Under the pieces are notes generated by a model that was given only the letters and a program-made list of their open reading frames with translations, ran no database searches and was not told the origin of the DNA. This document shows, piece by piece, positions 1 to 52,204 of a stretch of 64,000 bases of DNA. Position 1 is the stretch's first letter. The number at the start of each line of letters is the position of its first letter. Source of the stretch: Clostridia bacterium (GTDB lineage: Bacteria; Bacillota; Clostridia; Oscillospirales; Acutalibacteraceae). Location of the stretch: positions 1 to 64,000 of the forward strand of contig JAFRMR010000020.1 of NCBI GenBank assembly GCA_017430535.1, read 5' to 3'. Both the position numbers and the translations under genes were made by a program.

Positions 1-1598
1 GCGGTTACGACTTCAAGAGTCTTGCTGTCACCGATGTAGTATTCCGCAGAATCTGTAGGCGCAGTTACGCCGGCAGGGGCTTCACCTGTGAATGTGTAGG
101 TAAGAGTATAGGGGATACCGCTCTGGGTTGCCTTTGCAGTTACATTACCCGCAGGCATCTTGCCGGTGGTAATCTCATTATCATCAGCATCGTAATATAC
201 CCAGTCGGTTATGGTGTAGCCGTCCTTGGTTGCTGCTGCAACTGAGGGGATATCATCGCCCTCTTCAAGCTGTACCGGTGCAGGTGCCGCAAGCTTATCT
301 GCATCCTTTACATTTTCATAGGTATATTCATAAGTAAGAGTATAATCCCAGATTGCAGTAAAGGTGATGCCGCCTGAGGGAACCGTTAAATTTCCGATAT
401 CGGCTGAGTTGTAGGTGTTGGTGCCGTCAGTCCAGCCGAGGAAATTATGGCCTGTCCATACAGGGTCGGAAGGAGCTGTAATAGGATCGCCTACATTGGC
501 AGGAGTGGAGTTGTCGGGTGTGCCGTTGTTATAAACATACTTTACAAAAGAACCCTGTGTATAAACCGCATAAAGGGTATCGGGGCTCTCTGCTTTAAGA
601 GTGGCAGCAGTCACATCGGGTGTGGTGGCGTTCTGTGTGGTTGCCCAGCCAAGGAATGTAGTGCCGGCGGCAGTGGTAACAACGGGAAGGGAAGCGGCAG
701 TGTTAGCCTGGCCAACTTCTTCATATACACCGTTGCCCTTATTGGTAATACCATCGGCTGCGGCAATAGTACCGGTAACGCCGAGAGTAGTATTGTTGGT
801 ATTATAAGTTACAGTACCGCCGATAGCGAGATTCTCGGAGTAACTGTTGACATCAAGGTAATAATATGATGAATCCAACGGGCCAATTTCATCTGCGGAA
901 CTTACCCATGTCATATATAACTCGGGATTGTCATAATCATCTTTTGTACATACAGAACCGCCTTCAACTCCGAAAATAGATTCCTGAGTAAGATCTGTAA
1001 TATCATTTTTGACAGTAAAATACCAGGTGATTAAATCTTTGCCGGTGCCGTCGCGGGTAAGTACATAACCGCCGTATTCTTCATTGTCAGTGAGAAACTC
1101 GGTGTTTGCAATCACATATGACTTGCCGGAATCGTATATACCTAACATATTCGCTTTGGTTTCACCGGGGATAGAACAAATCTGCCCGATTGATGAGCCC
1201 GAATCAAAATACTTGCCGCCCGAAACCGGAGCGCAGGAAGATTCAAGTGCAAGCAGGTTTTTATTGAAAGAAAGAAGCATTGAAAACTGATACACATTGA
1301 ATACCGAATCGGGATCCGAGCCATCAGCCATCAGAGATTCAAAGCTCATTACCGCTTTGATTCTGTCGCCTTTTTTAACATAAAGCGTACCGTCGCAGGT
1401 ATCTGTGCCGGAATAGGAAACATCGGAGATTTCATCCTCAAGAGGATCTCCGTTTGAGTCAACACGATAAAACTTGGTATAGACATTGAATATGCCGTGC
1501 TCATCCTCTGTTAAGGCAAATACTGCAACAGACATGCTGCCTGCAATAAGTGCCAAGGCAAGAAGCAGCGCCATGGGTTTTCTAAAGAGCTTCCTCAT
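1..1598 (-). CDS. Giant secreted repeat protein, C-terminus beyond window edge (cohesin-like domain plus InlB B-repeats)
   Basis: Reading from 1598, about 532 residues are visible and the frame is still open at base 1. The ATG at 1596-1598 follows an AAGGAGG site at about 1606-1612. Residues 1-29 are a signal peptide (MRKLFRKPMALLLALALIAG and onwards). Residues of about 30-260 form a beta-rich domain with the cohesin-like hallmark of a hydrophilic KKGDRI turn followed by strands. After it come InlB/Flg_new-type repeats (FLGWATTQN, HNFLGWTDGT, then a YTITDWVYYDADD block). It is the third cistron of the unit starting at 17638. The last visible 330 bases are nearly the same sequence as a block inside the 2199-aa neighbour, which suggests recombination between paralogues. 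Whether it ends in a dockerin cannot be seen. Role as surface adhesin or scaffold is inferred from the architecture. Confidence 0.85.
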   Translation of the reverse strand, partial: MRKLFRKPMALLLALALIAGSMSVAVFALTEDEHGIFNVYTKFYRVDSNGDPLEDEISDVSYSGTDTCDGTLYVKKGDRIKAVMSFESLMADGSDPDSVFNVYQFSMLLSFNKNLLALESSCAPVSGGKYFDSGSSIGQICSIPGETKANMLGIYDSGKSYVIANTEFLTDNEEYGGYVLTRDGTGKDLITWYFTVKNDITDLTQESIFGVEGGSVCTKDDYDNPELYMTWVSSADEIGPLDSSYYYLDVNSYSENLAIGGTVTYNTNNTTLGVTGTIAAADGITNKGNGVYEEVGQANTAASLPVVTTAAGTTFLGWATTQNATTPDVTAATLKAESPDTLYAVYTQGSFVKYVYNNGTPDNSTPANVGDPITAPSDPVWTGHNFLGWTDGTNTYNSADIGNLTVPSGGITFTAIWDYTLTYEYTYENVKDADKLAAPAPVQLEEGDDIPSVAAATKDGYTITDWVYYDADDNEITTGKMPAGNVTAKATQSGIPYTLTYTFTGEAPAGVTAPTDSAEYYIGDSKTLEVVT

Positions 1599-1734
1599 TA
1601 GAACAGTCCTCCTTAAAAATGCGTTCAGTGAACTCAGGCAGCGTGTTTACACAGCTGCAATCTCAGCCCACTTTGCCGTTATAAACAAATAGTGTCAACA
1701 CAAAAAATCGTATTTGCACTTTCTGCTTCATAAT

Positions 1735-1778
1735 GGCATATATGGGTATTTAACCGTTTTTAAACACCCGTATATGCC
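1735..1778. repeat. 17-bp inverted repeat between two giant genes
   Basis: Arms 1735-1751 and 1762-1778 pair over 17 positions with two mismatches that become G-U pairs in RNA; the loop is 10 bases. It lies in the 246-base gap between the 2199-aa and partial genes. No U tract follows, so it does not look like an intrinsic terminator. It could be an RNA processing or stability hairpin, or a protein binding site; its function is unknown. Confidence 0.6.
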
Positions 1779-1802
1779 ATTTGAAACATTAAGGGTGTTA
1801 TC

Positions 1803-1826
1803 CCTGCCCCGGTTTCCCGGGGCAGG
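1803..1826 (-). other. GC-rich intercistronic hairpin after the 2199-aa gene
   Basis: A perfect 10-bp stem (1803-1812 with 1817-1826) with a 4-base loop lies 19 bases past the stop codon. The sequence after it on the minus strand is not T-rich, so full termination is unlikely. Similar hairpins follow the 3012-aa and 1789-aa genes. An mRNA 3'-end stabilising or processing role is inferred. Confidence 0.6.
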
Positions 1827-1844
1827 TAATTTATAATCAGGACC

Positions 1845-4800
1845 TTATTCAGCTTTGCCGGTAGTCTGATTGATAACATAAGCTCCTTCATGAACTTTGT
1901 TGATAGTAGTTACATCCGCTCCGGTGAAGCTGGAATCTGTTGTCAGATTGGCAGCTCTGAACATATAAGGACTTGTCCATCCGGGAGTCTCAAGTTCCTT
2001 ATTCATTGCTGTTGTATCTGAGCCGGTAACATTACCGTCACAGTTTACATCACCGAAGATTACGATGTAGAACATCTCTACAAGTACATCATCGGTTTCA
2101 TCATCAACGGTGCCGTTTCTGTCATAAACCGATACTGTTGTGCCGGTTACTACTCTGTTTCTCTTAAGCCCATCAAGTACAATTCTGCCGTCACCATATA
2201 CTTCAATGTAATCTAAAATGGTTGTTGCAGTCAAACCGGTGGTAATGCCGTAAACATACCAGTCAGTTGCACCGGGTGTGTATGTATAACCGTATGTATC
2301 GGTATAGGCCTGTTCAACACTGGTTACTCCATAGGGTGCGTACTTCGCCCTGACTCTTGCGCTTGTGGATGAATTGAAACCGGTTATGGTTGCTGCATTA
2401 TAGGTTTCAACTTTTCCGCCACGCTCTATCATTGTGTTAGTATTGCCGGTTTTGGGAACCAGTTTAACGGGAACGCGATTCCACTGCGCATAAAGGGTGA
2501 TATCGCTCTCTATTACAGAGTCAACTGCATAAGGTGTTCCGTTTGAGTCAGCCCAGCCTGCGAAGGTAAAGTACTGCTTTGCGGGATCTGCCGGGAAATC
2601 AGCGGCAGTAAGGGCGGTGCCTGCTATAACATCTGCTGTGTCAACCTGTACGCCGTCAACCACAAAGGTTACTGTGAACACGCTTCTTACCCATTCGCCG
2701 GCAACAGCAATGTCGCCTGCGCCGAAGGTTACTTCGGTTACAACTGCATCATTCAGTTTCCAGCCGGAGAATGCGTAGCCTGAAACCTCATTAACAGTTG
2801 CAAGTGATACTGTATCGCCGATGTAATAATTATTGGAATCGGTGGGAGCAGTTACGCCGTCGGGAATTTCACCGGAAATTGTATAGGTAAGATGATAGGC
2901 AATACCGCTCTGGGTTGCCTTTGCGGTTACATTACCCGCAGGCATCTTGCCGTCGGTAATTACATTATCATTTGCATCGTAATATACCCAGTCTGTTACG
3001 GTATAGCCGGTCTTGGTTGCTGCTGCAACTGTGGGAAGGTCGGCCTGATATGCCTTTGTTACAGGTGCAGGTGCTTCAAGCTTATCTGCATCCTTAACGT
3101 TTACATAGGTATATTCATAGGTGATGGTGTAATCGTTTCTTGTCCACTCACCGGCAACCGCAATATCGCCTGCGCCGAAGGTTACTTCGGTTACAACGGC
3201 ATCATTCAGTTTCCAGCCGGAGAAGGTGTAGCCCTCAGGTGCGGTTACAACTTCAAGAGTTTTGCTGTCGCCGATATAGTATGTGCCGTTATCTGTGGGT
3301 GCTGTTACGCCGGCGGGAATATCGCCGCTGATTGAGTAAGACAGAGTATAAGGAATACCGCTCTGGGTTGCCTTTGCAGTTACATTGCCTGCAGGCATCT
3401 TGCCGGTGGTAATCTCATTATCATCTGCATCATAATATACCCAGTCTGTTACGGTGTAGCCGTCCTTGCTTGCTGCTGCAATTGTGGGAAGATCAGCCTG
3501 ATATACCTTTGATAACTGTGCAGGTGCTGCAAGTTTATCTGCATCCTTAACATTCACATAGGTATATTCGAAAGTGATGGTGTAGGTTTCAACATCCCAG
3601 ATTGCGCTGATTACTTTATTTTCAGCAGGCATTGTGGTAATGGCCTCGCTCCAGCTCTGGAATGTATGACCGGTCCAGGTGGGATCTGCGGGAACGGATA
3701 CGCTTTCGCCCGATGCATACCAATCGACCTGATCGGGATCGCCGTTGCCGAACTGCCAGGTAATGCTGTATTCCCATACTGCCGTGAAGGTAAGGTTGCC
3801 TTCAGGCATTGTCATCTCACCGATCTGAGCGGATGTGTAGTTGTTGGTGCCGTCAGTCCAGATTCTGAACTGATGATCTGCCCATACGGGATCTGCGGGA
3901 GCAGCAATGGTATCCTCATAATACTTGGGAGATACAACGATATTATCTTCGCCGTTGCCCAGTACATAAGTGATGGAATATTCATTATGAGTCCACAGAG
4001 CATAGAAATCGGTGGTATCGGCAGTGGGGATTGCAAGAGCGGCAACCTGAGCTGATGTGTAGGTGTTGGTGCCGTCGGTCCAGCCTGCGAAGGTCCAGCC
4101 GGCCTTTGAGGGCTCAGCTGCAACATTGCTGCCGATTGTACCCTGAGGATCATAGGTTAACTGATAAGCGCTGCCTATAAGCTGACCGGTTGTTGCCGGG
4201 TCATCATCATAATAGCTTATGGTTATTGTATTTGCAGAATAAGTACCCTGAACGGTAACATCATCATCAGGCATGGTTGCGGGTATTGAAGACCAGCCGC
4301 TGAAGGTGTAGCCGGGGATATCGGGTGCATCTGCAAGAAGGGTTAATTCGGTGCCGTAAGCAACAGATGAAACAGTTGTGTATTCTGCGCCCTCTGTGCC
4401 GTAGTTTGCACCGTAAACCATATAAATAATGTTGTGCTTATGAACATCCCACTGAGCGGTGTAAGTTACATCGCCTGCAGGCATTGTAAGGGCTTCGATT
4501 TCGGCCTTCTGAAGAAGGGTAACGCCGTTATCTGCAGACCAGCCGAGGAAGTCATAACCTGCACGGGTGGGATCGGCGGGAACATAGCCGGCAAGGCTTG
4601 TGCCGAAGGGCACGCCGTTATCCGGAGCCTGATATACAACATCCTGTGTTACATCATCCGCATACTTAAAGGTAAGGGTGTAAGGATTGGCTGTATAAGT
4701 ACCGGTGATTGTTACTGCCTCATTGGGCATGGTATCGGGAATCTGAGACCAGCCGCTGAAGGTATAGCCGGTGATGGCTGCGGGCTCTGCAACGATATAA

Positions 4801-7800
4801 CCGTTGGCCGCATCATCCTTGGCAGTGCCGAAGGGAACATTCTCAAACTTTGCATACTCGTAGTCTGTGCCGTAAGTTGCACCGGAAACAAGATAGGTTA
4901 CGGTGAACTTGTTAATTGACCACTGAGCGGTATAGGTAACATCATTAGCCGGCATTGTAAGAGCTTCGATTTCGGCCTTCTGAAGAAGGGTAACGCCGTT
5001 ATCTGTGGACCAGCCGAGGAAGGTGCGGCCCTCCCAGGCGGGGTCTGCAGGAACGTATGTTGCCAGTGATTCTTCATAAGGAACGCCGTTATCCGGAACT
5101 GCATAAACAACATCCGCGGTGTTACCGTCATTGGCCATTATGAATGAAAGGGTGTATGAGTTCTTAGTCCACTGGGCTGTGAATGTTACATCCTCTGCAG
5201 GCATTACATAAGCGCCTATCTGAGCTGAGGTGTAAACCTGATTATCCTTGGAGCAAAGCCAGTCTGCAAAGGTATAACCGGTCCTTACGGGATCGGACGG
5301 AGCGCTCTCAAGAGTTTCACCGTAGGTAACCTTAGTTACGGACGGCTCATCTCCGTTACCGAATACAAGGGTAAGGTCATATTTATTTACATCCCATGTA
5401 GCGTTAATGGTAAGGTTCTGTGCGGGCATGGTGGAAGGTGTTGCGGCATCCCAGCCCTTGAAGGTGTGACCTGTCCAGGTGGGGTCTGCGGGAGGCGCGC
5501 CTTCGGTGGAGGCCTCGAATGCGAAGGTATCCACTATATCCGCTTCGCCGTTACCCAGTACATAGGTGATGGTGTAGTTATTTCTCTGCCACTGAGCGGT
5601 GAAGGTAAGATCCTTGGCAGGCATACCGTCGGTATAATCTGCAGGAGCTTTATTATCACCATCAAGCCAGCCGGTGAAGGTGAAACCGGTCTTTGAAGGA
5701 TTGGCAGGAACTTTATCGGTAAAGGATGCGCCGAATGCAATACCGTTACCATCATCTTTATCATAAACAGTATTTACCTCACCGTTATCCGGTGCGAAGG
5801 TAAGGGTGTAGCTGTTAAGAGTCCACTGAGCGATGAAATTGACATCATCGGCAGGAAGTGTAAGGGCAGCTACCTGAGCTGAGGTGTAGGTGTTGGCGCC
5901 GTCGGACCAGCCGGCGAAGGTGTGACCTTCTTTGGTGGGCTCTGCGGCAACATTTGCTGCGCCGATTGTGCCGCCGTAGGTTACCTCATATGCACTGATA
6001 AGGGTATCATTGGATGCCGGAGCATCACTGTAATAGGAAACAGTGTAGTCTCTGGCAGTCCACTGAGCTGTGAAGGTAAGATCCTCTGCGGGCATACCTG
6101 CATCAGCATTGTATGCGGTAAGGGTGATGTTATTATCTTCATCCAGCCAGCCGGCAAAATTGTAACCGCTCTTGGTGGGCTCGGTTGCAGGTACGGGAAT
6201 CTGTGAGCCGAATGCTACCTGATTTGCATCAACATACTGCTCATAAACTGCGCCGTCAACCATAAAGATAACATCAAACTTATCGGGTACCCACTGAGCA
6301 ACCGCAGTAAGATTCTCTGCGGGCATTGTGTAATCCTCGGCATCGCCTGAGAACTCATCGCCGGAGGTTACGCCGGTGAATGCCCAGCCGTCAAATACAT
6401 AGCCGGTCTTGGTGGGCTCAGCAGGAGCATCAATAGTTTCACCGTAGCCGACGGAGAGGCTCTCAATAAGAGTGCCTGCGCCTGCGGGCTCATCGGAGTA
6501 ATAGGAAACTGTATACTCATTCTGAATCCAGGTTGCGGTATATACGGCGTTTTCATCGCCCATTGTATCAACCTCGGGCTCCCAGCCGCCGAAGGTGTAG
6601 CCTTCCTTGGTGGGGTCTGCGGGAGGTGTAATGGTATCGCCGTCTTTAAGGTTTGTGACTGTAGCATAGGTTTCGCCGTCAACCATAAAGGTGGCAACAA
6701 GGTTTGCGGCCTGGGTTGTTTCCGTATAGGATGCGGCAAGCTTAATGCCTGCGGGATCGTTTACGGTATAGCTCTGACCTGCTGTGTAGGCGTTGCCGTT
6801 TGCATCAAACCAGGTGTTGACGGTAAGTGAACCTATGGTAAGAGCGGGAGGCGTGAATGTGCCGTTATAAACAGCTGTATCTCTGTCTGCAAGGTTGCCT
6901 TCTTCGGCAAGAATGCCGGCAATTACAGCGGTATCGGCAGTGCCGCCGGCCTGAATCTCTTCTGTGGAATCAAAGTAATATTTAACAGAAACAGTTACGG
7001 CTCTCCACTCTGCTGTGTAAGTGGTGTTTACATTGGGGTAAGTGGCGGGAATGGTGGTAACAAGGTTGTTATCCTGATCGCGCCAGCCCATGAAGGTATA
7101 GCCGGTTCTTGAGAATTCGCCTGCTGCGGCGCTCTCTGCATTGTAGCTTGCGTTTCTGTTGTATTTGGGTGTTGCGGAGCTGTCAGTCCAGGTGTTACCT
7201 GCATAGACATCATTGCCGGAAATAACCACATTTGAGGTTGTGCCGTCATTGAAATCATAAGTTACGGTAACAAGCTTTTCCCAATGAGCGGTGTACTCAA
7301 AGGTGTTGGTATCCTGAGTGGCATAGGGGAACTGTGCGGGAAGCGCTCCCACACCGTTTATGCCTTCGCCTGACCAGCCCATGAATCTGTATGTATAGCC
7401 GTCTACGGTCTTAGTGGGATCAGCCGGGGGATTATCCCAGGTCTGGCCGCCGTAAACGTAGGGTTCACTCTGACCAATGGGGCTGATTGCAGTACCGCCG
7501 TCGGTATTGAAGGTGATAACTACATTCTGCTGCCACTGAGCGGTGAATACTACGCCGCCGGCTTCGGGCATCTCAAAGGTGCTGTCTGATACCGCAGGTG
7601 CGGTAACATCGGCATTGTTTGAGGTCCATCCCATAAAGGTATAGCCGCTTCTTGTTTTGATATTTGCGGGGATTGTAAGGGTATCATCCCCTACAACGCC
7701 GGTAACATCGGCATAAACTGCATCATCATAACCGGATGCAAATCTTACGCTGTTGCCTACGGTGATTTCGGGAGCATTTGTGAAGGAGGCAGTGAGGTTA

Positions 7801-8444: not shown

Positions 8445-8488
8445 TTGCGTTTTGTCCCTCCTTAGATATATTTACGGTACATCTGTTC

Positions 8489-8515
8489 CCTGCGGGCGGG
8501 GCTGCCGCCCGCAGG
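8489..8515 (-). other. GC-rich intercistronic hairpin after the 3012-aa gene
   Basis: A perfect 11-bp GC-rich stem (8489-8499 with 8505-8515) with a 5-base loop lies in the 90-base gap between the 3012-aa and 2199-aa genes. The sequence that follows on the minus strand is not a U tract, and the next ribosome binding site comes 25-35 bases later. An mRNA processing or stabilising element is more likely than a full terminator. Confidence 0.6.
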
Positions 8516-8534
8516 ACTGTTTGATTGTTATGTG

Positions 8535-17573: not shown

Positions 17574-17637
17574 AAAAATCCCTCCTAAATAAGAAAAATT
17601 TGAACATGTAGATAGATGGGCACTATTACACACTGAC

Positions 17638-17666
17638 ATTATATAAAATAAAAACGCAAGCGTCAA
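17638..17666 (-). promoter_or_regulatory. Sigma-A promoter of the 3012-aa gene operon
   Basis: On the minus strand, TTGACG (17661-17666) and TATAAT (17638-17643) are separated by exactly 17 bases. The predicted transcript starts near 17631, leaving a leader of about 58 nt before AGGAGG and the TTG start at 17573. This placement decides the start codon of the gene. Confidence 0.85.
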
Positions 17667-18387
17667 TGATATTTAATATAATATTATGCAAAAAAACAGA
17701 CAAAATTTTCTCAAAAATTTTTACTTATATAAAATATACAAAAAATAGGGTTTTGAACTGGTAACTTTTACCTGCATTTCTCAGGTTTTTCGGCACAGAA
17801 AAATTCACCTGAATTCACATTTTTTCTCACTTTTTTATGATTTCCGGGTATTTTTTAAGGTAATTTTTCCGCCGTTTTTCGGAAAAAAATCAGAGAATAA
17901 CAAGATATTGAGCAGAGAAAGAAAACAGCCCACAAGAAGTGGGAAAAGAAGGAATAAGTAACAAGTTACAAGTGACAAATGAAGGTCGCTGCGCTCCGAT
18001 ATTGTGTTATGCCGGTACATTTTTTGTTATGCTCACGCATATCCTGATAGAATGATTTGACCTGCGGCCATGAATTGGCCTCCGCTGTGAAATGCCCAAA
18101 GGGCATGATTTAAATTGCGGCACAATTCCTTAAGGATGCTGACGCATTTTATATTAAGCTCATATCCTTGAAGCGGGCGGATAATATCCGCCCCTAGGCC
18201 TGAGCGCACTGATTTTTATTCTCCCTCGGTACAGGCAACCGGAGCGGTACGACCGTCAGCATTTTGCAGTAAAAAACACATCACTTTGCCTGAGCAAAAC
18301 ATCACTGAATGAATATCACTCCGCAAGGCGGAGCTTCACTGCCAATCAAGGGAACCGTCCCCTTGATTGGCACAAACTTTTCCCCGT
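17667..18387. other. Gene-free spacer with several palindromes, resembling dispersed repeats
   Basis: No credible gene was found. The part from 17667 to about 17900 is very AT-rich. From about 18000 on, several short palindromes follow each other: a GGGCGGAT/ATCCGCCC pair near 18175-18193, a CTCCGC/GCGGAG pair at 18319-18333 and a 13-bp perfect stem at 18340-18372. ATCACT-type direct repeats lie around 18280-18320. This composition resembles small non-autonomous or REP-like elements common between clostridial genes. No transposase is present. Confidence 0.55.
18340..18372. repeat. Perfect 13-bp inverted repeat with GGGACGGTTCC-like centre
   Basis: Arms TGCCAATCAAGGG (18340-18352) and its complement (18360-18372) flank a 7-base loop. 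Read on the minus strand, the centre is GGGGACGGTTCCC-like. Sequences of this kind recur as dispersed repeats linked to REP-associated transposases in clostridial genomes. That link is from general knowledge, not from a search. Confidence 0.6.
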
Positions 18388-18423
18388 TAAACAAAACCCC
18401 GCCCCGGATTGCTCCGGAGCGGG
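18388..18423 (-). terminator. Intrinsic terminator after the 1848-aa gene
   Basis: On the minus strand, a 10-position GC-rich stem with one internal mismatch (18398-18407 with 18414-18423) and a 6-base loop are followed by GTTTTGTTT. It lies 35 bases past the stop codon and ends the 1789-aa/1848-aa unit. Confidence 0.75.
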
Positions 18424-18457
18424 ATCTGTTGATTTATAAGGATTTTGCGGTTTTTAC

Positions 18458-21400: not shown

Positions 21401-24004
21401 ACCTGCGAAGGTTGAACCCGTCTTGGAGGGGTTTGCAGGAGCGGTTACGGCAGCGCCGTAAGCATAACTCTGAACAATATTTGCCTGACCGTTAGCTAAA
21501 ACATAGGTAATACGGTAGGTATTTATATTATAGGTAGCATCATAGGTAACATCATTATCGGGCATTACGGAATCAACTGACCATCCGCTGAAGGTGTAAC
21601 CCTCACGGGCGGGAACGTCGGTGGGAGGATAAATCCTTGCGCCGGCGGCCACGGTCTGCTGGGCGTAATAAACGCCGTCAATGGTGTAGGTTACGGTATG
21701 GCTGTTGCCTACATATCTGGCAGTCCATACAGTATTTGCGGCGGGAACGGTTGCAGTGCCGATATCGGCAAGATTAACAACGGTACCGTCGGCAGCTTCC
21801 CAGTAAGCGAAGGTCTTGCCTTCAACTGCGGGAGCGGGAGGACAAACAAGGACATCACCGTAGGTCTGAGAACCGGAAGAAATAGTGGTGCCGATGTTTG
21901 AAAGGAAGGTCATGGTGTAGGAATTGGCGGTAAAGGTACCGGTAATAACTACATCATTATCGGGCATTGTGGCAGGTACATTCTGCCAGCCGCTGAAGGT
22001 ATGTCCGGTCCTTGAAGGTGCCTGAGCAGGCGCAGGAATGGACGAACCGTAAGCGACATTGGGAATTACTTCATAATTTTCACCGTCAATCTGATAGGTT
22101 ACGGTGTGGGTGTTGACGGTAAAGTCAGCAGCAACGGATATATCCTGCGCGGGCATGGTTGAGGGGATTCCCGTCCAGCCGTTGAAGGTATAACCGGTCT
22201 TTGAAGGATTGGCGGGAGGAACGATGGTCTCCCCTTCTTCATACTGCTGGGTTGTATATGTGCTGCCGTCAACAGTATAAGTGATTGTGTATTTATCGGC
22301 TACAATCTCGGCCCACTGTGCGGTAACCGTAAGGTCATTGCCGGGCATTACGGGAGGAATCGGAGGATTCCAGCCGTTGAAGGTGTAGCCTTCTTTTGTG
22401 GGATCGGCGGGAGGCGTAATTGCCGCGCCTTCCACATAGCTGGTCGTGGTATTGGGCTGGCCGTTATCGTAAACAATTGTAAGGATGTAACTCCAGGTGG
22501 CGGTTACGGTAACATCCGCATTGCCCATAGTCTGCGGAAGTCCGCTCCAGCCTGCGAAGGTAGCACCCTGCTTTGTGGGATCGGCAATAGGCGTGATTGC
22601 CGCGCCCTCGGCGTAAACCTGAGTGCCCAGAACAGTCTGACCGTCAACATAAGTTACGGTATGGCCCCAGACAGCAGTAAAGGTTACATCATCGGTTACG
22701 GTATAGGTAGCGCCGGGCTGAAGCACGGTGGCTCCGTTGTCGGCAGTCCAGCCTACAAGAACATAGCCCTGCTTAGTGTAATTGGGCAATGTAATGGTAT
22801 CGCCATCATCAATTTCGTCCTGAGTAAGAGCGGTAATGGTGTTGGCGCCGTCCATAAAGGTTGCAGTATAGGTCTGAGCTGCAGGAGCTTCGCCAAGCAT
22901 AAAGACATGGTCGCAACCTGTCATATCAACAACAACACCCAGGTTGTAGGAGTTGTCTTCATCAGCTGCATCTGTTAAATCATCAAGAACGCAGTTGAAT
23001 GCCTGTGCGCGCTGACCATTTGTAACATTGGAACAGCTGTTTATATCAATACCGAGGTCGCCGATAAGGTAATCATTAACTCCGTCGCTGTCGGTATCAA
23101 AGGGGTTGACTGTGGAATAGTTGGTTGCATTTGCTTTTGCCTTATGATAGGGCTCTGCTTCTGTTCTTACGGTAATAATCCAGTCAAACAGCCATTCATT
23201 TGTCTGAGAATAAAGACCTTCAAAACGGCCGATATTGCCGATACTTACTGTAGCAAGATAATAATCCAGCGAATTCAGAAGGGCAGCATCAAGGCCGGTT
23301 TTGTTTACAGTCATACCTGAATGCTGTGAGATGGTCTTCGGGCTGATTTCAATCGTGGTTTCGGGATCATCGCCGCCGGTTACATCGTCGGTAATCATGG
23401 GGTTAAGGCTGTTTATCGCATCGGGAGCCTTCATAGCCATTGCGGTATAACCTGTGTTGTTAAGACCGTCACCCTGCTTATCAAGGTTTGAAACCCAGTA
23501 GCCTTTGTTTGTGTAGGTGGGACCGTTAAAGTCAAAGAACCTTCTGGAGCCCATAATTACGGCATTGAAGCCGGTAATATAAACATTGGATTTGCAATAG
23601 GCTCTGAGTGTAAGCTCATCGCCGGGCTCTACATAGTGGTCGGTAAGTTCGCCATCGCTTTCATATACTTCAATACCGTAGTAAATGAAAGGCTCGTTCT
23701 GATACTCAGTGCAGAGATCAGAATAAGACTTGATGCCAAACGGGTGGGTAGTGCTGTTATAGTTCTGATATGTTCTGTTATAAGAATTGAATGTCTGAGG
23801 CGTTACAGCCTGCCAGTCGCTGCTGCCATTACGGTAAGCCCTGTAGAAAACATCGGTAACACCGTTTTTATTTCTGAACGAGAGCTCTTCAACCTGCGGG
23901 GGGTTAATATCTGCGTTTGCCACAACCGAACCAAGGCAGGTCAGCATTCCGAAAGCCATAACAAAAGCCATAACGGCGCTCAGAAAGCGCTTGAAATTAG
24001 ACAT
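18458..24004 (-). CDS. Giant secreted protein: cohesin-like domain, about 16 InlB B-repeats, three C-terminal beta-sandwich repeats, no dockerin (1848 aa)
   Basis: ATG 24002-24004 has AAGGAGGAG about 9 bases upstream. Residues 1-32 are a signal peptide (SNFKRFLSAVMAFVMAFG). Residues of about 100-330 hold a cohesin-like region (VEPGDELTLRAYCKSNVY, then RRFFDFNG) with a calcium-loop-like DTDSDGVNDYLIGD segment. About 16 InlB/Flg_new repeats follow (GYTFNGWTGIP, GHTFSGWQNVP and others). The last 340 or so residues are three related beta-sandwich units of 105-125 aa, each containing a (T)WT(F/I) strand. Unlike the other completely visible members it has no dockerin and stops at FNVVIG. There is no wall-anchor signal. 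It lies 84 bases after the 1789-aa gene. It could be the end piece or binding tip of the assembly (inference). Confidence 0.88.
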   Translation of the reverse strand: MSNFKRFLSAVMAFVMAFGMLTCLGSVVANADINPPQVEELSFRNKNGVTDVFYRAYRNGSSDWQAVTPQTFNSYNRTYQNYNSTTHPFGIKSYSDLCTEYQNEPFIYYGIEVYESDGELTDHYVEPGDELTLRAYCKSNVYITGFNAVIMGSRRFFDFNGPTYTNKGYWVSNLDKQGDGLNNTGYTAMAMKAPDAINSLNPMITDDVTGGDDPETTIEISPKTISQHSGMTVNKTGLDAALLNSLDYYLATVSIGNIGRFEGLYSQTNEWLFDWIITVRTEAEPYHKAKANATNYSTVNPFDTDSDGVNDYLIGDLGIDINSCSNVTNGQRAQAFNCVLDDLTDAADEDNSYNLGVVVDMTGCDHVFMLGEAPAAQTYTATFMDGANTITALTQDEIDDGDTITLPNYTKQGYVLVGWTADNGATVLQPGATYTVTDDVTFTAVWGHTVTYVDGQTVLGTQVYAEGAAITPIADPTKQGATFAGWSGLPQTMGNADVTVTATWSYILTIVYDNGQPNTTTSYVEGAAITPPADPTKEGYTFNGWNPPIPPVMPGNDLTVTAQWAEIVADKYTITYTVDGSTYTTQQYEEGETIVPPANPSKTGYTFNGWTGIPSTMPAQDISVAADFTVNTHTVTYQIDGENYEVIPNVAYGSSIPAPAQAPSRTGHTFSGWQNVPATMPDNDVVITGTFTANSYTMTFLSNIGTTISSGSQTYGDVLVCPPAPAVEGKTFAYWEAADGTVVNLADIGTATVPAANTVWTARYVGNSHTVTYTIDGVYYAQQTVAAGARIYPPTDVPAREGYTFSGWSVDSVMPDNDVTYDATYNINTYRITYVLANGQANIVQSYAYGAAVTAPANPSKTGSTFAGWDTTIPATMPASDLTITALWNAVTYHVTYVLDNGEPNIVQDYSYGDTIVPPANPSKQGNSFSGWSPALPGTMPAEDLTVTAQWTEGAYTVTYYVRDTDQGTYTVYGSDSYAFGAQINARPVKTATGWTYSPWLTSAGQSLPATMPAESIDVYSTGTKNLYHDIWYGKDGEIIAERDVYYDEQIPTIALPTYEGYTGAYWFPTDTVQKAENMVFNYRSAAGSANYTIKTILEKYDGTVDEIIETFSGTTDDPVALSPSQMQRTGYDFDADHSVTSGTINGNGTTQLVARFNLHEYNFIYTDNSGTHPSTVKYTTPLTVPTAAAKEGHTFAGWTWTRDNGTTLPNNTLPATMPAYNINGNASYTINSYNLIYKVDGEVYKTVTYQYGANITPEPAPERDGFTFSGWDNVPATMPAADTIVNGSFSVEAYAVIFMVDGVEYYRISADYGDDISGRMPAAPTKEGYTFTAWNPSVPATMPAGNLTVNATFTVNYYTAYFRDGDRVIATRRTAYGAQIDVPASPTKVGYTFAKWSDGTNEYTPAEVAALTMGAADITFNATWTANSYDAVFYAVDGDAEPYATVTGVTFGDSFAPPATDPTRPAYEFVGWKLAGTSAVTTTFVMDGEGRTYVGVWEQDTSASYIYSAGLASPSTYYAKGYALYNITLKDNIFAEDIYVNDGTKTIAFSKASYVKLGADSGVENIEIVGGKEVWTVGLVLAEASDTYRVYCTTTDGLSDQDNALIFDVAYAQKPGSAVEDEFISYAISDTTTYRGQYLTWTFVTSEDVTWIKLDGVYTPAEGAQKKLTTIYKYDTTSSNVTRTVSNGTATWSVRMRFTYSTDDLSILEAWTISYKVGSGTTYFKVNAGSPVNVTVGKDADALAQSASALPKYSLVNASVQSANVTAGVYTPVTIVTTDDCTKVRIGTGGKFATYQTTSANTSYTDEGGLRTWTINYKFKGSGSTEYTVNARGSVWGDPVTFNVVIG

Positions 24005-24043
24005 GTATACCTTCTCCTCCTTATAGAATGAGGATTATATCCC

Positions 24044-24064
24044 CGGCGGAGGGTTGCTCCGCCG
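24044..24064 (-). other. GC-rich intercistronic hairpin between the 1789-aa and 1848-aa genes
   Basis: An 8-bp perfect stem (24044-24051 with 24057-24064) with a 5-base loop lies 25 bases after the stop codon of the 1789-aa gene. No U tract follows, and the ribosome binding site of the 1848-aa gene comes soon after. It has the same layout as the hairpins at 1803-1826 and 8489-8515. Confidence 0.55.
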
Positions 24065-24088
24065 AGAACAATCGCTTAAAAGTTAATA

Positions 24089-27000
24089 TTATACATACTT
24101 GCCTGTGGTCTGGCTGATGTATCTTACCTGGTTAAATACATACTTTGCAATGGTAAGGTCGTTAAGGCCGAATCCGCCGTCGCCGTTAACATCTGCACCG
24201 CCTGCAAATTTTCTTTCAGCAAAGGAAGCTTCGGAATTACAATACTGATATCCGTCAACCTGAGCATTTGTTCTCTTAAGGTTGTTGATATCTTTACCGT
24301 CAATTGAGCAGTCGCCGTTAACATCACCGCGGTATGCAACTATATAGAATGCAAGGGGAGCATCAGTTGATTCATCTCTGATGATTATGTATGAACCTGT
24401 GCCGTATTCTTCTCTGGCTGCGTTAACGGGAACAACATCAACATAGCAGCCTTCTACTGTGAACATTTCCTCAAGAGTCTCTCCGGTTGCGTTTTCAGGC
24501 ACACCGTAAAGAACACCGTCAACAGTATAAACAACATCATTGCCGTTTTCTGTTATGGTTACAGTTTCGAGGCCGTAACCGTCTACAAAGATTGCATCAT
24601 CATCCATAACAATAGCTGTGTATTCTGCACCGCTGCCTTCATAGACACTTGATGTATCAAGCTCAAATGTGGCTGAGGATGAGCCGAAGGGAACAAGGGC
24701 TTCCTGTGCAGCGGTGATTGCTGCTGCGGCTTTGTCGATTACATCCTGATCGGACTTGGCAAGACCCTTGCCGTTGGTGTAGTTGCTCAGAAGAATGTCG
24801 CCGGCCTTGATTGCTCCGAGGAATGCAATGTAGCTTTCGGGAGTGTAGACAGACTGCTCTGAAGCTTCTTCTTCAACAACAGCACCTGTTGTAGTATTGA
24901 GACCGTAACCTTCGACATTGTTGTTGATAAAGTCTTTTGCAGAAGTAACAATGCCGGAAAGCTGAGTGTAGTTTGCGCCTTCTGCAAGATTCTTCCAGGC
25001 TTCAATAAGCTTGGTAAGAGCACAGTTGACCATTTCGGCTGTTGCATTTTCGTTACCGGCAACAGCATTTGCAAATGTCAAGGCATGGCTGTAAGCTGCC
25101 CATGAACCGGTTGACCAGGATTTTTCCTGCTCGGTTCTGTCAGCAAATCCGGGGCCGCCCTCAGCCTTTGGAGTCAGAGCCCAGTTGAGCTTGGACTTGT
25201 TGGCATCAATGGGAATAAGTCTGCCGGCAGTAAGTGACAGCCTGTGAAGAGCGTATGCGGATTCAACTGCCTTGATGGCCGTTGTATTCTCGGTAACATC
25301 CGTCTTGTAGTTGTCAACCGTGGTGGCATATTCTTCCTTCTGAGCAACAGTCATATTGTTGTAGTCTTCCTCAGAAGTCCATACCCACTTATATTCTCTG
25401 TCGATAAGGCCGTTTGCATAGCTTACGGCATCCTTCATATTCCTGTAGGTGTGACCTACATAGTTTCTCATACCGACGAAGCCGTAGCCGGATTCGTAGT
25501 ATTCTTTATAATCCTGATAGTAAACGGTGTAATCGCCTTCAGAACCTTCTGCATCATAGCTGGCTCTGGTGTAATTATAAGGAAGTACATTGTTAACTGC
25601 ATTCCAGAGAGCTAAAGCGCCTTCACTCTTTTCCCACTGCTTTATGGTTTCAATCTGAGTATAAAGAGTTCTGTAAAGGGTGAGGTAAGTGTTGCTTTCA
25701 TTTATTGTGCCAACATTGGATGCATTAATATGACCTGCAAAACCACCATTTTGAGTATCACCGCCGTAGATATTGGGCTGGTAAACGAATGCTGCTGCAC
25801 TCTTAAGAGCGTTGTAATAAGGAGTCCAGTAAGATGAACCGCCGCTCTTGAGGCCTGCAAGTGAACGGTTTGCGTTAACCGCATTCCTTACCAGTGAGGG
25901 AAGACCGAAGTCATCATAAATATGAATCCTGGTAGTGATTGTGCCGCTTACGCCGCCGACACTGATGGTGGTTGTGGCGGTGTATTCGCCGTCGGGAATC
26001 CAGGTGACACCGTCGGGTGCCTCTTTGATTGCGGTCTTGATTCTCATGCCCCAATCATCTTCAACATAAGCTTCGCTGCCGTCTTCTTTCTGATACTCAA
26101 ACTCGGTTCTCTTGAAGGATTCGGTATCAACTGAGAAGGGCATGAATGCGTAGGTACCGCCCTGGTGAGTAAGGCTCTGAGAAGTCGCCTCTTCTTCAGA
26201 GTTCTTGCTGACCCATGCTCTGTTTGCACCGGCGGAAATGCCTGCAGCAGTAACATTTACTGCAGTAAATGTATTCGGGTTAGGATTTTGAACACCCTGA
26301 TTGGTTTTGGTATCCTCTATACGGAAGGAATATCCTTCAAGTTTTGAAAGGGAATCACCTGAGCTCAGATAAATATCAGTGGGGTACTGAATTGTAGCAC
26401 CGTTGATAATGGTTGAATGAAGAGCTTCATCGTCGCCTTTATCGGATGCACTTACATAGCAGTAAGATGTGGAGGTAAGGGCTGTGCCGTTATTAAGGAA
26501 GTTGCCGTTTTCATCGGAAACTTTGTAAGAGAATGTAACCTCAAGCATCTGATTGTTGGAAAGGCCGCTGATATTACAGGGAACGCTGTCACCGGCCATA
26601 ATCACGGTGGAGTTGGGAGTAACACCGGTAATATCAAGGGTATTGCCCATGCCGGTACCGTCAATTATGGTACAGGTTGCGCCGGTAATTGTGTAAGAAT
26701 ACAGGCGGTCAATCTTGCGCTTGTAGTTATCGTTCTTATCTCTGAAGGAGGTGTTAACACCGCTGGAACCATTGTAAATGGAGAAGTCAATACCTTCGCT
26801 TGTGGCAGCTGCTACTGAGGGAAGGTGATTTTCCAGCTCTTTGAATTCCTGTTTGTCGGAAAGGTGGAGAACCATACAAACAATAGGAAGTGCTACGCCG
26901 GCAATAATCTTGCCTCTGCCTGTAAGGGTGTGGCCGTTGGCTTCGCCGGTAAATGTGTTGTTTGCCCCGAGAGTTCTTATAAGGTCACTTGCCATACCGG

Positions 27001-29458
27001 CGAGCAGGCCGTTATTAAGGAATGTATCAATGCTTACTACTTCGTGATCGAATACATCGGGGAAGAGTACATCAAATATCCTGTGAACGGTATCAACAAG
27101 AACGGTCTGGATATTGTCATAAGCAAAAGCACCGGAATCGTTCTTTGTAAGAAGAGTCTGAATGGGAAGAATGTTGAGGCCGAGAACGGGATATACAATG
27201 TAATTAAACAAAATATTATATACAACGGAGCCTGCATAAGATGCTATTTCATTGCTTATCCAGGGACGGTTGTCGGGGCCGGATGTGCCGGTATTATCGG
27301 CATCGATGGGGATAAGGGAGTTAACAAGAAGATCAAGATCGCCCCATACATCATTTGCGGTAAGGTTGGTTGTTTTGCCTTTATAGTCATCGCTCTTGAA
27401 ATCAAGGGCAAGCAGGCACTGAGCAACATTGTTTATTTCGGTTGAAGCCCAGGTATAAACAGCCCACGCAGCAATGGTAACGGCTGTGGTGGTGTAGGAA
27501 CCGCTGTCACCGAGATAGCCGAGAAGACCGGTCCTGTTAGTCGTACCGTTGTTGGTAACATTGTAGTTGGCGTCGGTTGCGGTAGCATTAAGGTTGGTAT
27601 CAAGTACGGAGTTGAGGTTATAAGCCGCAACATCCATAAGAATGGCAAGAGCTTTGTTGACTACCGCCTCATAATAAGCCTGATCACTGTTGAAGTCGGA
27701 ACGAACGGGAGCGGTATAGGTGAACTGAGGAATATCCTGATATGCAAGCTGGATGCAGGCCTGAAGTGCTACGCCGGCCAGATCATTGGTTGTGTTTCCT
27801 TCCGGGATATAGATATAGGAAACATTTGCATTCATTACCGATCTGAGAACATAGGCAAGCAGGGCCTGGTTACCCATAGCATTAACCTCGGCGGGAGTCT
27901 TGACCTCGCCTCTTTCAATGGCGCCTTCATCGAAGAAATCATCCTCGGTTACGCACATAAGGAACTTGAGGGCGCTGCAGAGGTTGTTTACAAGATAGCT
28001 GTTGTCGCCGTCGGTCCAGGTGAAGCTATAGCCCTCGTCTTCGGGGTTAAGCTTCCAGGTATAGGTTGTGGCTGCACCGGAGGTGGATTTGCTGCTGTAT
28101 TTAATGATACTGTCTATGAACAGACCCAGGTTGTGGTTGAGAGCCAGAACGAAGGAGGTGTAACCGGTCATATCATAGTAAGGAACTGACATGGTTTCAG
28201 GATCGAAAATACGGAAGATCTTATCGCCTGAAACTTCTTCGGGAGCGTCGCCCAGATACAGGTAATCGTAAGTGGGGTTGATGAGGGGCTCGCCGTTGGC
28301 ATCGGTCTTTACGCTGCCGTCTTCGTTAAGCTGGAATTCCTCTGTCTTGGCCTTATCGAAGGTGTAGCCCATCTTTTCGCGAACCCATCTCTTGGTGATT
28401 CTGTTGAGAACGGGAACAAGAATGCCGTTGTAGGCCTGAAGGAACAGATCCTCAACAAAGGGATAAACCTCTTTGAGGTTGCTCAGGTTGATTCTGGAAT
28501 AGCACTTGGAAGCATCCGGCTTTGCGGCGCCCTGGGAAACACGAACGAAATCGCCGAGGCCTACGGTTACCCAGTTATCATCATGAACCCAGCCGTAATA
28601 GTCGTAAGCGTTGGTGTTGAGATCGCCTGTGACTATATTGCCTACGCCGCCCGAAGCTGTGTAGGAACGGAACTGGATTTCCTGGAATGCGATATGGGAT
28701 GTGGTGTTCTGTGCAGAATAGAACAGGGAGTCAAGCTGCTTGAACTCGCCGAGGACATACTTGTTGAGGATATCCTGAGCAAGAATCATGGCATCTACGG
28801 TTGTGCCGTCGTTATTGAGGTATTTTGCGGGAATTCTTCTGTCCTCAAAATATTCCCAATCTTCACCGAATCCTTCAATATCATCTGCAAGGCCGGTAAG
28901 CTGAATGAGCATACCGAAAGCAAGCTCTCTGACATCGAAAACATAATTTTTAATAAATGAATCAAGAATACCGAGGCTTACAGTGCCGTTAACATACTTT
29001 TTGACAATGGGAGCCAGGGCTGAGATGAAGTCCAGCAAATCATAGATAACGGTCATATCGCCGTTGGATCTTTTGGTGTTGCTGATGTAGGGCATTGCAT
29101 TACCCAGCAGGGAAGCATCGCCCAGAAGGTTGGACTCAAGAAGAGTACCTACATTGCTGTAAAGGGTTCTTACGCTGCCGATGGTGTGATCAACATCGCT
29201 GATTTCAAGGGTACCGACATAAATATCAAGCACCATCTTGTTTTCATCGAGCAAGCGGTCAAGAGCGTCAAGAGCCATTTCAGCGTACTGCTCGAGGGTG
29301 AAGACCGGCTGGTCAACATCATCATAAACAACGCTGTTCTTGACGGTTGCGGGGTCGCCCTTGTAGTTTGACTGGTATGCCGATGCGGCAACGGACAAGC
29401 TGCCGAGAAGCATAACCACTGCAAGAACAAGGGAAAGGATGCGAAGTGATTTTTTCAT
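24089..29458 (-). CDS. Large secreted dockerin-like protein, mostly helical, with FIVAR-like segment (1789 aa)
   Basis: ATG 29456-29458 has AGGAGGTAGC just upstream. Residues 1-27 are a signal peptide (KKSLRILSLVLAVVMLLGS). Residues of about 30-900 are largely helical and match no family I can name. A beta region follows (about 930-1150). A second helical part includes a FIVAR-like end (ENATAEMVNCALTKLIEAWKNL). The C-terminal 80 residues are the best dockerin in the window: two loops, DVNGDCSIDGKDINNLKR and DVNGDGGFGLNDLTIAKYV, joined by about 30 residues. It has no InlB repeats, unlike its four neighbours, and no catalytic motif was recognised. It is first in its operon, behind a strong promoter and a long leader, so it is probably the most expressed member. 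A cell-surface scaffold or binding role is inferred. Confidence 0.85.
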   Translation of the reverse strand: MKKSLRILSLVLAVVMLLGSLSVAASAYQSNYKGDPATVKNSVVYDDVDQPVFTLEQYAEMALDALDRLLDENKMVLDIYVGTLEISDVDHTIGSVRTLYSNVGTLLESNLLGDASLLGNAMPYISNTKRSNGDMTVIYDLLDFISALAPIVKKYVNGTVSLGILDSFIKNYVFDVRELAFGMLIQLTGLADDIEGFGEDWEYFEDRRIPAKYLNNDGTTVDAMILAQDILNKYVLGEFKQLDSLFYSAQNTTSHIAFQEIQFRSYTASGGVGNIVTGDLNTNAYDYYGWVHDDNWVTVGLGDFVRVSQGAAKPDASKCYSRINLSNLKEVYPFVEDLFLQAYNGILVPVLNRITKRWVREKMGYTFDKAKTEEFQLNEDGSVKTDANGEPLINPTYDYLYLGDAPEEVSGDKIFRIFDPETMSVPYYDMTGYTSFVLALNHNLGLFIDSIIKYSSKSTSGAATTYTWKLNPEDEGYSFTWTDGDNSYLVNNLCSALKFLMCVTEDDFFDEGAIERGEVKTPAEVNAMGNQALLAYVLRSVMNANVSYIYIPEGNTTNDLAGVALQACIQLAYQDIPQFTYTAPVRSDFNSDQAYYEAVVNKALAILMDVAAYNLNSVLDTNLNATATDANYNVTNNGTTNRTGLLGYLGDSGSYTTTAVTIAAWAVYTWASTEINNVAQCLLALDFKSDDYKGKTTNLTANDVWGDLDLLVNSLIPIDADNTGTSGPDNRPWISNEIASYAGSVVYNILFNYIVYPVLGLNILPIQTLLTKNDSGAFAYDNIQTVLVDTVHRIFDVLFPDVFDHEVVSIDTFLNNGLLAGMASDLIRTLGANNTFTGEANGHTLTGRGKIIAGVALPIVCMVLHLSDKQEFKELENHLPSVAAATSEGIDFSIYNGSSGVNTSFRDKNDNYKRKIDRLYSYTITGATCTIIDGTGMGNTLDITGVTPNSTVIMAGDSVPCNISGLSNNQMLEVTFSYKVSDENGNFLNNGTALTSTSYCYVSASDKGDDEALHSTIINGATIQYPTDIYLSSGDSLSKLEGYSFRIEDTKTNQGVQNPNPNTFTAVNVTAAGISAGANRAWVSKNSEEEATSQSLTHQGGTYAFMPFSVDTESFKRTEFEYQKEDGSEAYVEDDWGMRIKTAIKEAPDGVTWIPDGEYTATTTISVGGVSGTITTRIHIYDDFGLPSLVRNAVNANRSLAGLKSGGSSYWTPYYNALKSAAAFVYQPNIYGGDTQNGGFAGHINASNVGTINESNTYLTLYRTLYTQIETIKQWEKSEGALALWNAVNNVLPYNYTRASYDAEGSEGDYTVYYQDYKEYYESGYGFVGMRNYVGHTYRNMKDAVSYANGLIDREYKWVWTSEEDYNNMTVAQKEEYATTVDNYKTDVTENTTAIKAVESAYALHRLSLTAGRLIPIDANKSKLNWALTPKAEGGPGFADRTEQEKSWSTGSWAAYSHALTFANAVAGNENATAEMVNCALTKLIEAWKNLAEGANYTQLSGIVTSAKDFINNNVEGYGLNTTTGAVVEEEASEQSVYTPESYIAFLGAIKAGDILLSNYTNGKGLAKSDQDVIDKAAAAITAAQEALVPFGSSSATFELDTSSVYEGSGAEYTAIVMDDDAIFVDGYGLETVTITENGNDVVYTVDGVLYGVPENATGETLEEMFTVEGCYVDVVPVNAAREEYGTGSYIIIRDESTDAPLAFYIVAYRGDVNGDCSIDGKDINNLKRTNAQVDGYQYCNSEASFAERKFAGGADVNGDGGFGLNDLTIAKYVFNQVRYISQTTGKYV

Positions 29459-29700
29459 ATGCTACCTCCTGAAAAATATGACGTACGGACAATTGATTTA
29501 CCGGAATCCTGCCGCCGGACAGCCTGGGAAGCCTGCCGACAGGCTTGCTGCGACCGGCCGTTCTGTCAAAAAGCTTCGTCAACGCAACCGCACTTTAACA
29601 GCCGGCCTGCATTGCCGATAAACATTGCCCATTTGCGGTTGCAAGGAAGCCGTCGGATTTGCCTTTTGGGGGCACTACTCCCTTGAGCCGACTATTTGGT
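29459..29700 (-). promoter_or_regulatory. Long structured 5' leader of the 1789-aa gene (possible regulatory RNA)
   Basis: About 240 nt separate the predicted transcript start from the ATG. On the minus strand the leader contains several potential stems: GTCGG/CCGAC enclosing a CAAGGGAGTAGTGCC segment, a long-range GCAACCGCA/TGCGGTTGC pair, and an AAGCCTG/CAGGCTT hairpin with a TCGG loop. The GGGAGTAG motif recalls the yybP-ykoY manganese leader but the rest could not be matched. It is best described as an unassigned structured leader. Confidence 0.45.
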
Positions 29701-29707
29701 CACTTAT

Positions 29708-29736
29708 AATATAACTAAATTTAAAAGAAAAGTCAA
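29708..29736 (-). promoter_or_regulatory. Sigma-A promoter of the 1789-aa/1848-aa unit
   Basis: On the minus strand, TTGACT (29731-29736) and TATATT (29708-29713) are separated by 17 bases. A further TATAAG overlaps downstream. The strand upstream is A/T-rich, like an UP element. It drives the long leader at 29459-29700. Confidence 0.75.
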
Positions 29737-29794
29737 TAAACCGCGGGAGCGAAAAAAAATTTTGGAATTTTTTACAAAACAGGTTTTTCAGTTT

Positions 29795-52161: not shown

Positions 52162-52204
52162 AGTGCCACAACGATACAGAAAAAACAGAAAGGAACCAAT
52201 AATT

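Follow-up and report, generated by a model that had tools for sequence, protein, structure and literature searches.

We analysed a window of 64,000 nucleotides (nt) which forms the start of the 84-kb contig JAFRMR010000020.1 (C17) of a Clostridia bacterium (assembly GCA_017430535.1; the genome is 2.41 Mb in 27 contigs). The window opens with five genes encoding secreted proteins, all on the minus strand and ordered, from position 29458 down to position 1, as P0004, P0003, P0002, P0001 and P0005. The original prediction, made from the sequence, was that these proteins could be chained by cohesin-dockerin joints into an adhesive fibre. Below, COHL denotes the cohesin-like profile family of P0001 and P0002, and COH3 and COH5 denote the P0003- and P0005-type families. 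Protein lengths are given in amino acids (aa).

1..1598, minus strand: P0005, giant secreted protein, 532 aa present, C-terminus cut by the contig start
129..743, minus strand: P0005 InlB B-repeats, beginning of the stalk
813..1523, minus strand: P0005 cohesin-like domain, COH5 type, residues 26-262
1845..8444, minus strand: P0001, 2199 aa; candidate link with a cohesin-like domain, InlB stalk, X-like module and dockerin
1857..2273, minus strand: P0001 X-like module and dockerin, residues 2058-2196
2355..7763, minus strand: P0001 InlB B-repeat stalk, 18 stretches by Pfam and 22 by our own profile, limits approximate
7764..8336, minus strand: P0001 cohesin-like domain, residues 37-227, by iterated profile
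8535..17666, minus strand: P0002, 3043 aa as listed; N-terminal domain, mid-protein cohesin-like domain, InlB stalk, X-like module and dockerin
8595..9047, minus strand: P0002 X-like module and dockerin, residues 2874-3024
9057..13511, minus strand: P0002 InlB B-repeat stalk, limits approximate
13512..14099, minus strand: P0002 cohesin-like domain, residues 1190-1385, by iterated profile
15087..17501, minus strand: P0002 N-terminal domain P2N, residues 56-860
18458..24004, minus strand: P0003, 1848 aa; cohesin-like domain, InlB stalk, C-terminal region
19553..22870, minus strand: P0003 InlB B-repeat stalk
22970..23914, minus strand: P0003 cohesin-like domain, COH3 type, residues 31-345
24089..29458, minus strand: P0004, 1789 aa; dockerin-only; its counterpart opens the cluster in relatives
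24101..24529, minus strand: P0004 X-like module and dockerin, residues 1644-1786, both calcium loops canonical
25772..29365, minus strand: P0004 N-terminal region P4N, residues 32-1229

All five proteins have a signal-peptide-like start, as judged by eye without a predictor. The translation of P0002 likely starts at the TTG codon at 17573, giving 3012 aa, if the starts of its relatives are a guide. The InlB B-repeats of P0001, P0002, P0003 and P0005 are recognized by Pfam with E-values from 7e-13 to 4e-107, and the repeat stalk families in the window proteins are PF09479, PF18998 and TIGR02543. Pfam scans of the five proteins revealed neither a catalytic domain nor a carbohydrate-binding module (CBM). 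Dockerin ends are found in three of the four complete genes (P0001, P0002 and P0004), so that the domain inventory of the original prediction, with stalks in four proteins, signal peptides in five and no catalytic domain, stands. The last 60 residues of P0001-P0004 contain no sortase motif, and the end of P0005 is outside the assembly. No known domain was found by Pfam in the C-terminal region of P0003, which has no dockerin either. P4N matches no known family and contains no InlB repeats in Pfam; P2N gave no known family in Pfam and NCBIfam scans, and a similar domain is present in three relatives (24-30% identity).

The intergenic gaps equal 84 nt (P0004-P0003), about 884 nt (P0003-P0002), 90 nt (P0002-P0001) and 246 nt (P0001-P0005), a pattern that fits two transcription units. 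Paralogues of P0005 are encoded on contig C18, with a dockerin end, and on contig C24, with an IPATG end. C18 opens with the tail of another dockerin gene and may possibly continue C17, since repeats terminate both contigs; no common sequence was found at their ends. The remaining open reading frames (ORFs) of the window resemble housekeeping and metabolic genes, as judged by eye.

Similarity of the cohesin-like domains to cohesins

Iterated profiles place cohesin-like domains in the same number of proteins as originally predicted, that is, in P0001, P0002, P0003 and P0005. All four are detected only in this way, those of P0003 and P0005 via families of their own, which in turn align to COHL. 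An iterated profile seeded on the P0001 residues gathers a total of 42 stretches, with each protein contributing one domain or two. Alignment A1 contains 41 of them (one near-duplicate was omitted, and the first row was lengthened by hand), and its rows have 14-34% identity to the first row, P0001.

The comparison of a profile of 66 cohesin-like domains with that of 19 true cohesins of the genus (the places that passed a frame and motif test, of 28 tried) gives P 2.1e-6. The lowest value among control comparisons (X-module, dockerin, InlB, P4N, P2N and reversed alignments) is P 0.07, and 20 column-shuffled cohesin profiles give P 0.2 or worse. The COH3 family taken separately yields P 2.3e-4 against the true cohesins and P 7.7e-16 against COHL, and three minimal links, described below, yield P 3.9e-5 against the true cohesins. 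With hhalign, A1 aligns with seven true cohesins encoded in the studied genome, at E 1.7e-4 and a probability of 50%. A six-row profile, A5, drawn from anchors, minimal links and further members, was run against PDB. Its eight best rows are solved cohesins, the first being 3l8q (E 3.6e-5), and from E 0.05 onward the rows include unrelated proteins. Single sequences were also compared with Pfam Cohesin (PF00963) at E up to 1: 4 of the 41 A1 rows match (best E 1.3e-5), as do 3 of the 6 A5 rows (best E 3.1e-5). Two A1-family places, on contigs C233 of genome G009 and C10 of genome G019, pass the PF00963 cut-off only when summed with their neighbours.

Several results speak against this relationship. 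Pfam Cohesin matches none of the five window proteins and none of the three minimal links, the COHL scores of the latter are weak (E 7e-7, 3e-5 and 7e-4), and A1 as a PDB query gave no match at E up to 10. The rows of A5 were picked partly because some already matched PF00963, and this selection favours the result; the profile-profile comparison and its controls are independent of it. The COH5 family gives P 0.025 against the true cohesins directly and P 2e-6 against COHL, so that the P0005-type domain reaches cohesins only via COHL. On balance, the sequence comparisons support the view that the cohesin-like domains of the window are remote but real relatives of cohesins. At the level of sequence, the comparison of the N-terminal domains with cohesins, proposed as a check with the original prediction, came out in its favour.

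Dockerins and conserved gene order

The C-terminal module has about 160 residues, with the X-like part upstream of the dockerin. In whole-protein searches the Dockerin_1 E-values are 4e-4 for P0001, 5e-3 for P0002 and 2e-2 for P0004, all below the gathering cut-off. When the whole genome was searched, the cut-off was passed by P0001 and, only together with its neighbours, by P0002, but not by P0004; the P0001 dockerin module alone scores 26.5 bits versus the cut-off of 22.9. At E up to 1, Dockerin_1 matches 46 of 51 modules. The module matches solved dockerins 4uyp (E 3.7e-9) and 8x39 (E 7.9e-11). A conserved stretch upstream of the dockerins is seen in alignment A4, whose rows were chosen by a profile including that stretch; the stretch has no match among solved X-modules in PDB.

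The duplicated calcium loop-helix motif of Dockerin type I (PF00404) is present under a lenient residue rule. Counted from the alignment by this rule, after removal of duplicates, of short pieces and of contigs C12 and C13, 72 of 73 dockerins have an acceptable loop 1, 57 an acceptable loop 2, and 56 both. In the window, both loops of P0004 are canonical, and loop 2 of P0001 and loop 1 of P0002 deviate mildly. A count by regular expressions (loop 1 69/85, loop 2 42, both 41) was rejected as unreliable, since some matches were misplaced and some loci were duplicates. Within a protein, the dockerin halves agree at 3.24 of 11 non-calcium positions, a value not reached in any of 10000 shuffles, versus 1.45 between proteins; this holds for the 59 dockerins, out of 73, whose loop positions 1 and 12 have usable residues, with relatedness uncorrected. 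Hence, the dockerins are internally symmetric by sequence. Two-half symmetry of this kind is associated with two possible binding orientations. Dual binding of dockerins and the symmetry of type I and type II dockerins are covered in an excerpt of PMC12484212.

The weak scores of the window dockerins and the degenerate loop 2 in 16 of 73 could mean that the giants are unlinked wall or matrix adhesins, whose dockerin-like ends are calcium-stabilised caps binding glycans or the wall. We consider this very improbable, as the two-fold symmetry points to a common protein partner, and as dockerins of unrelated proteins are nearly identical within two genomes (see below) and not between genomes.

The original prediction called for a search of the same gene order in related genomes, and the order does recur. 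It runs P0004-type, P0003-type, P0002-type, P0001-type and further links, the last of which often has two cohesin-like domains. Examples are G011:C18, G025:C61, G013:C29 and G037:C25 (genome and contig; first four genes), and the contig G044:C22 starts at the second gene of the order. We collected 29 loci from public genomes, 18 of which are of herbivore source (goat, sheep, reindeer, horse, yak, water buffalo); six of the 29 coincide with loci of genomes used for profile building. The gene following the P0004-type gene matches COHL, COH3 or InlB profiles in 24 loci, and among the other five, two loci end within the gene and three have 356-899 nt left. Searched as a single query against 148 genomes, the P0001 N-domain has matches in 32, all of them members of the genus of 45 (that of the window included), and in none of the 103 others. 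No protein of the mapped loci has a long array of cohesin-like domains, the number being one or two; in the fetched loci, 14 dockerin proteins have one such domain and seven have two.

In three distant loci (L195, L196 and L197) a protein of 392-455 aa is encoded directly after the P0004-type gene and contains only a signal peptide, a cohesin-like domain and an X-dockerin. To judge by this composition, it is a link lacking its stalk, and we refer to these proteins as minimal links.

Two observations concern P0004-type genes. Upstream of them, 15 of the 29 relatives (L173-L197, about 1800-9500) have a single ORF of 2348-2468 aa; the one scanned, from L195, contains GH94-type domains by Pfam, presumably as in cyclic glucan synthases. 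Contig C27 of the studied genome (L057:10203-15545) encodes a second dockerin-only protein, of 1780 aa and weakly P0004-like. The P4N profile matches it weakly (best stretch 2.3e-7 in a one-sequence search), and hence it is only a possible second, alternative end piece.

Candidate partners within the genus

The studied genome has eight PF00963 matches, of which seven, on contigs C12 and C13, are above the cut-off and canonical-looking, and one, on C25, is weak. The dockerins of the window might bind these cohesins, the giants then being cargo of C12/C13 scaffoldins and their N-terminal domains uninvolved. A finding of this kind, with cognate cohesins only on unrelated scaffoldins, had been named in advance as contradicting the original prediction. 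We consider it quite unlikely. The C12/C13 cohesins look like a separate set, because canonical dockerins share their contigs and recombinase-like genes are nearby. Moreover, PF00963 matches at E 0.01 are absent from 27 of the 45 genomes of the genus, yet 22 of the 27 keep both dockerins and COHL. Such matches occur in 18 genomes, above the cut-off in 14, and a few of the places are A1 domains themselves. Dockerin matches are present in 44 of the 45 genomes, A1 domains in 40, and both in 39. All 15 near-complete genomes keep both parts and only seven of them match PF00963; the eight without a match all have dockerins and cohesin-like domains.

The C12/C13 loci (L053 and L054) encode, besides true cohesins and canonical dockerins, a dockerin protein with a phage-lysozyme domain and a collagen-repeat protein with a cohesin. 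Resolvase- or recombinase-like genes, similar on both contigs by eye, lie near this set, which perhaps represents mobile elements.

The ten dockerin matches of the studied genome fall on eight ORFs. All were scanned with Pfam, and the phage-lysozyme domain on C12 is the sole hydrolase. Elsewhere in the genus we scanned seven of ten fetched dockerin ORFs, the three excluded carrying InlB repeats. Four of the seven have BspA-type leucine-rich repeats (LRR; L211, L212, L213 and L214, from four genomes), one has a CHAP domain, and two have no other domain. With the C27 protein added, three of eight have no further domain above the cut-off. These other dockerin proteins partly fit a cable of the kind proposed below. 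Dockerin-bearing plant-polysaccharide hydrolases, as expected of a cellulosome, were found neither among the eight ORFs nor among the seven, and a scaffoldin with a cohesin array and a CBM was not found in the mapped loci or among the window proteins.

Eleven mapped members carry, by pattern, a P.TG motif, a hydrophobic stretch and a basic tail in place of the dockerin. All 11 contain a cohesin-like domain (nine by locus mapping and two by A1) and thus combine it with a C-terminal sortase signal as a sortase-anchored scaffoldin does. The Pfam LPXTG model is found in three of four such members scanned, above the cut-off in one. The anchor of the studied genome (C24:309-4934) has an IPATG end and an N-domain as in P0005. 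In 30 of the 45 genomes its C-terminus is matched over nearly its full length (E 2.2e-32 or better, reaching at least position 184), and the studied genome has four sortase matches, three of them above the cut-off. An anchor adjoins the chain genes in G013:C52, G019:C10 and G040:C134. The statement of the original prediction that no sortase signal appears is therefore correct for the ends of P0001-P0004, where a sortase-assembled pilus would require one, and does not extend to the system, which uses sortase anchoring because it has the IPATG member on C24 and, in some relatives, anchors within the cluster.

Further sortase-like ends were seen. A paralogue of P0003 is encoded on contig C21 (L059:4899-9653) near a GroEL-like gene, so named by eye, and a sortase-signal cohesin-like protein is encoded near the same GroEL-like gene in G011:C32, G021:C9 and G008:C18. 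On C24 itself (L062:5564-14163), two sortase matches lie amid proteins with sortase-like C-termini, and by eye this looks like an ordinary sortase pilus locus. In the window, a small secreted protein of 193 aa (52163-52744, plus strand) has a C-terminus that resembles a sortase signal by eye.

The cohesin-like domains might also be ligand-binding beta-sandwich adhesin heads of cohesin ancestry, with the dockerins tethering the proteins to another surface partner. Such domains lie at the N-terminal end of the stalk in most mapped members, evolve fast, as the low identities within A1 indicate, and match cohesins remotely, and four genomes have dockerin matches with neither kind of socket. However, proteins consisting of COHL and X-dockerin only make poor sense as heads, the sortase-signal members have a cohesin-like domain and no dockerin, as sockets should, and A1 and dockerin matches go together in 39 of the 45 genomes. 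We regard this explanation as unlikely.

Dockerins of different genes within one genome are mostly 20-54% identical. Such strong differences suggest distinct partners and make an ordered assembly likelier than a free head-to-tail polymer. The interpretation given in the original prediction is supported in part. There are three outlying same-genome pairs; the dockerins of P0001 and its C18 paralogue are 78% identical, and the other two pairs, described next, are more telling.

A second kind of dockerin gene belongs to a TasA-like operon, which encodes a SipW-like peptidase, two or three TasA/camelysin-like proteins, a protein of about 1190 aa, and an X-dockerin protein with a SipW signal. The loci are L055 on contig C18 of the studied genome (5727-14242), L204, L206, L207 and L208. 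The protein of about 1190 aa has a C-terminal Hint-like domain, below the Pfam cut-off. A TasA-like protein occurs in 8 of the 45 genomes, and the dockerin gene of the operon is complete in four, the copy of the studied genome being cut by the contig end. Both kinds of dockerin are present only in G019 and G028 within the fetched set. In these genomes, the dockerin of the SipW-signal protein is 100% (G019) and 94% (G028) identical to that of a giant chain protein, and the operon dockerins of the four genomes are at most 62% identical to each other. Near-identical dockerins on unrelated proteins of one genome seem to have a common socket. Hence, the SipW-signal protein and the giant chain seem to use one socket, judging from their sequences.

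Proposed surface fibre and known systems

We propose with moderate confidence that the genes of the cluster specify components of an ordered surface fibre, non-covalent and wall-anchored, made of giant non-catalytic proteins. P0001, P0002 and their relatives, having a cohesin-like domain, an InlB stalk and an X-like module with a dockerin, would be links. P0004, having a dockerin and no cohesin-like domain, would be an end piece, tip or cap; P0003, with a cohesin-like domain and no dockerin, would be a separate socket-bearing stalk, and the IPATG paralogue on C24 would be the covalent wall anchor. The dockerin with its upstream module and calcium would plug into the cohesin-like domain of the next protein, and the resulting ordered cable, thousands of residues long, would hold binding domains away from the cell. 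A wall-anchored cable is the simplest reading, because sockets are on links and anchors, plugs are on links and end pieces, and the stalks are enzyme-free. We infer the binding of dockerins to cohesin-like domains, the order, direction and polarity of assembly, its calcium dependence and the adhesive role. The system as such is rated as a cohesin-dockerin scaffold and not a cellulosome.

Several observations count against the fibre. P0003 has neither a dockerin nor a sortase motif, loop 2 of many dockerins is degenerate, as noted above, and the C12/C13 cohesins could also be partners of the window dockerins. Five of the 45 genomes (77-86% complete) have no A1 match and all have a dockerin match, and in G004, G034, G035 and G043 (81-86% complete) a dockerin match occurs with neither kind of socket matched. 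Missing pieces of draft assemblies could explain some absences, in either direction.

Cohesin-dockerin joints are known mainly as clips of enzyme complexes, and CttA, a component of one such system, is non-catalytic. The following comparisons refer to excerpts of the cited papers. In Ruminococcus flavefaciens and R. champanellensis, the X-module dockerins of CttA and ScaB are held by the sortase-linked cohesin of ScaE, and CttA fixes the cell to cellulose via CBMs (PMC4081043, PMC7456326). The window system resembles this arrangement in the C-terminal X-like module with a dockerin and in the sortase-anchored, putative cohesin-like partner, the X-modules being set side by side by description only. 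It differs in that CttA, ScaB and ScaE belong to an enzyme-bearing cellulosome, whereas the window proteins have no enzyme domain, and in that the links (about 1200-3600 aa) have a socket and a plug of their own and InlB B-repeat stalks. Cellulosome scaffoldins also stack via a cohesin and a dockerin in one protein, and have dual-binding dockerins (PMC12484212, PMC5817068). Like such chains of anchoring, adaptor and primary scaffoldins, the links combine both parts in a single protein; unlike them, the window proteins have no enzyme or CBM, and their cohesin-like domains number one or two per protein rather than forming long arrays.

Non-cellulosomal cohesin and dockerin proteins were reportedly described by Peer et al. 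in 2009. Cohesin/dockerin adhesins of methanotrophic consortia, with a proposed role in adhesion, likewise place both parts outside cellulosomes, and the excerpt does not describe an ordered cluster of giant InlB-repeat links with an end piece and a sortase anchor (PMC10553843). Thus adhesion by cohesin-dockerin joints is already partly known, from CttA-ScaE and from these consortia. Internalin-type surface proteins share the InlB B-repeat stalk, but the window proteins have no LRR head by Pfam. The internalin label from NCBIfam was rejected, the model scores being far under the cut-offs. A cluster of this kind is not described in excerpts of the open literature on cohesins and dockerins, InlB repeats and TasA, a scope with little of the subscription literature.

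A broader claim is tentative, and we hold it possible and short of probable: that the cluster represents a class of appendage, an enzyme-free, ordered, calcium-locked cable of giant repeat proteins with dockerin-only tips, cohesin-dockerin links and sortase anchors, which also attaches to a TasA-like matrix operon via a common genome-specific dockerin. As 37 of the 41 A1 rows escape Pfam Cohesin, such systems are probably under-annotated. The minimal links of 392-455 aa are small enough for direct tests of self-assembly and could serve as building blocks of designed fibres. If the proposal is true, a purely structural fibre would be another route to a long surface appendage, in uncultured Clostridia of the herbivore gut.

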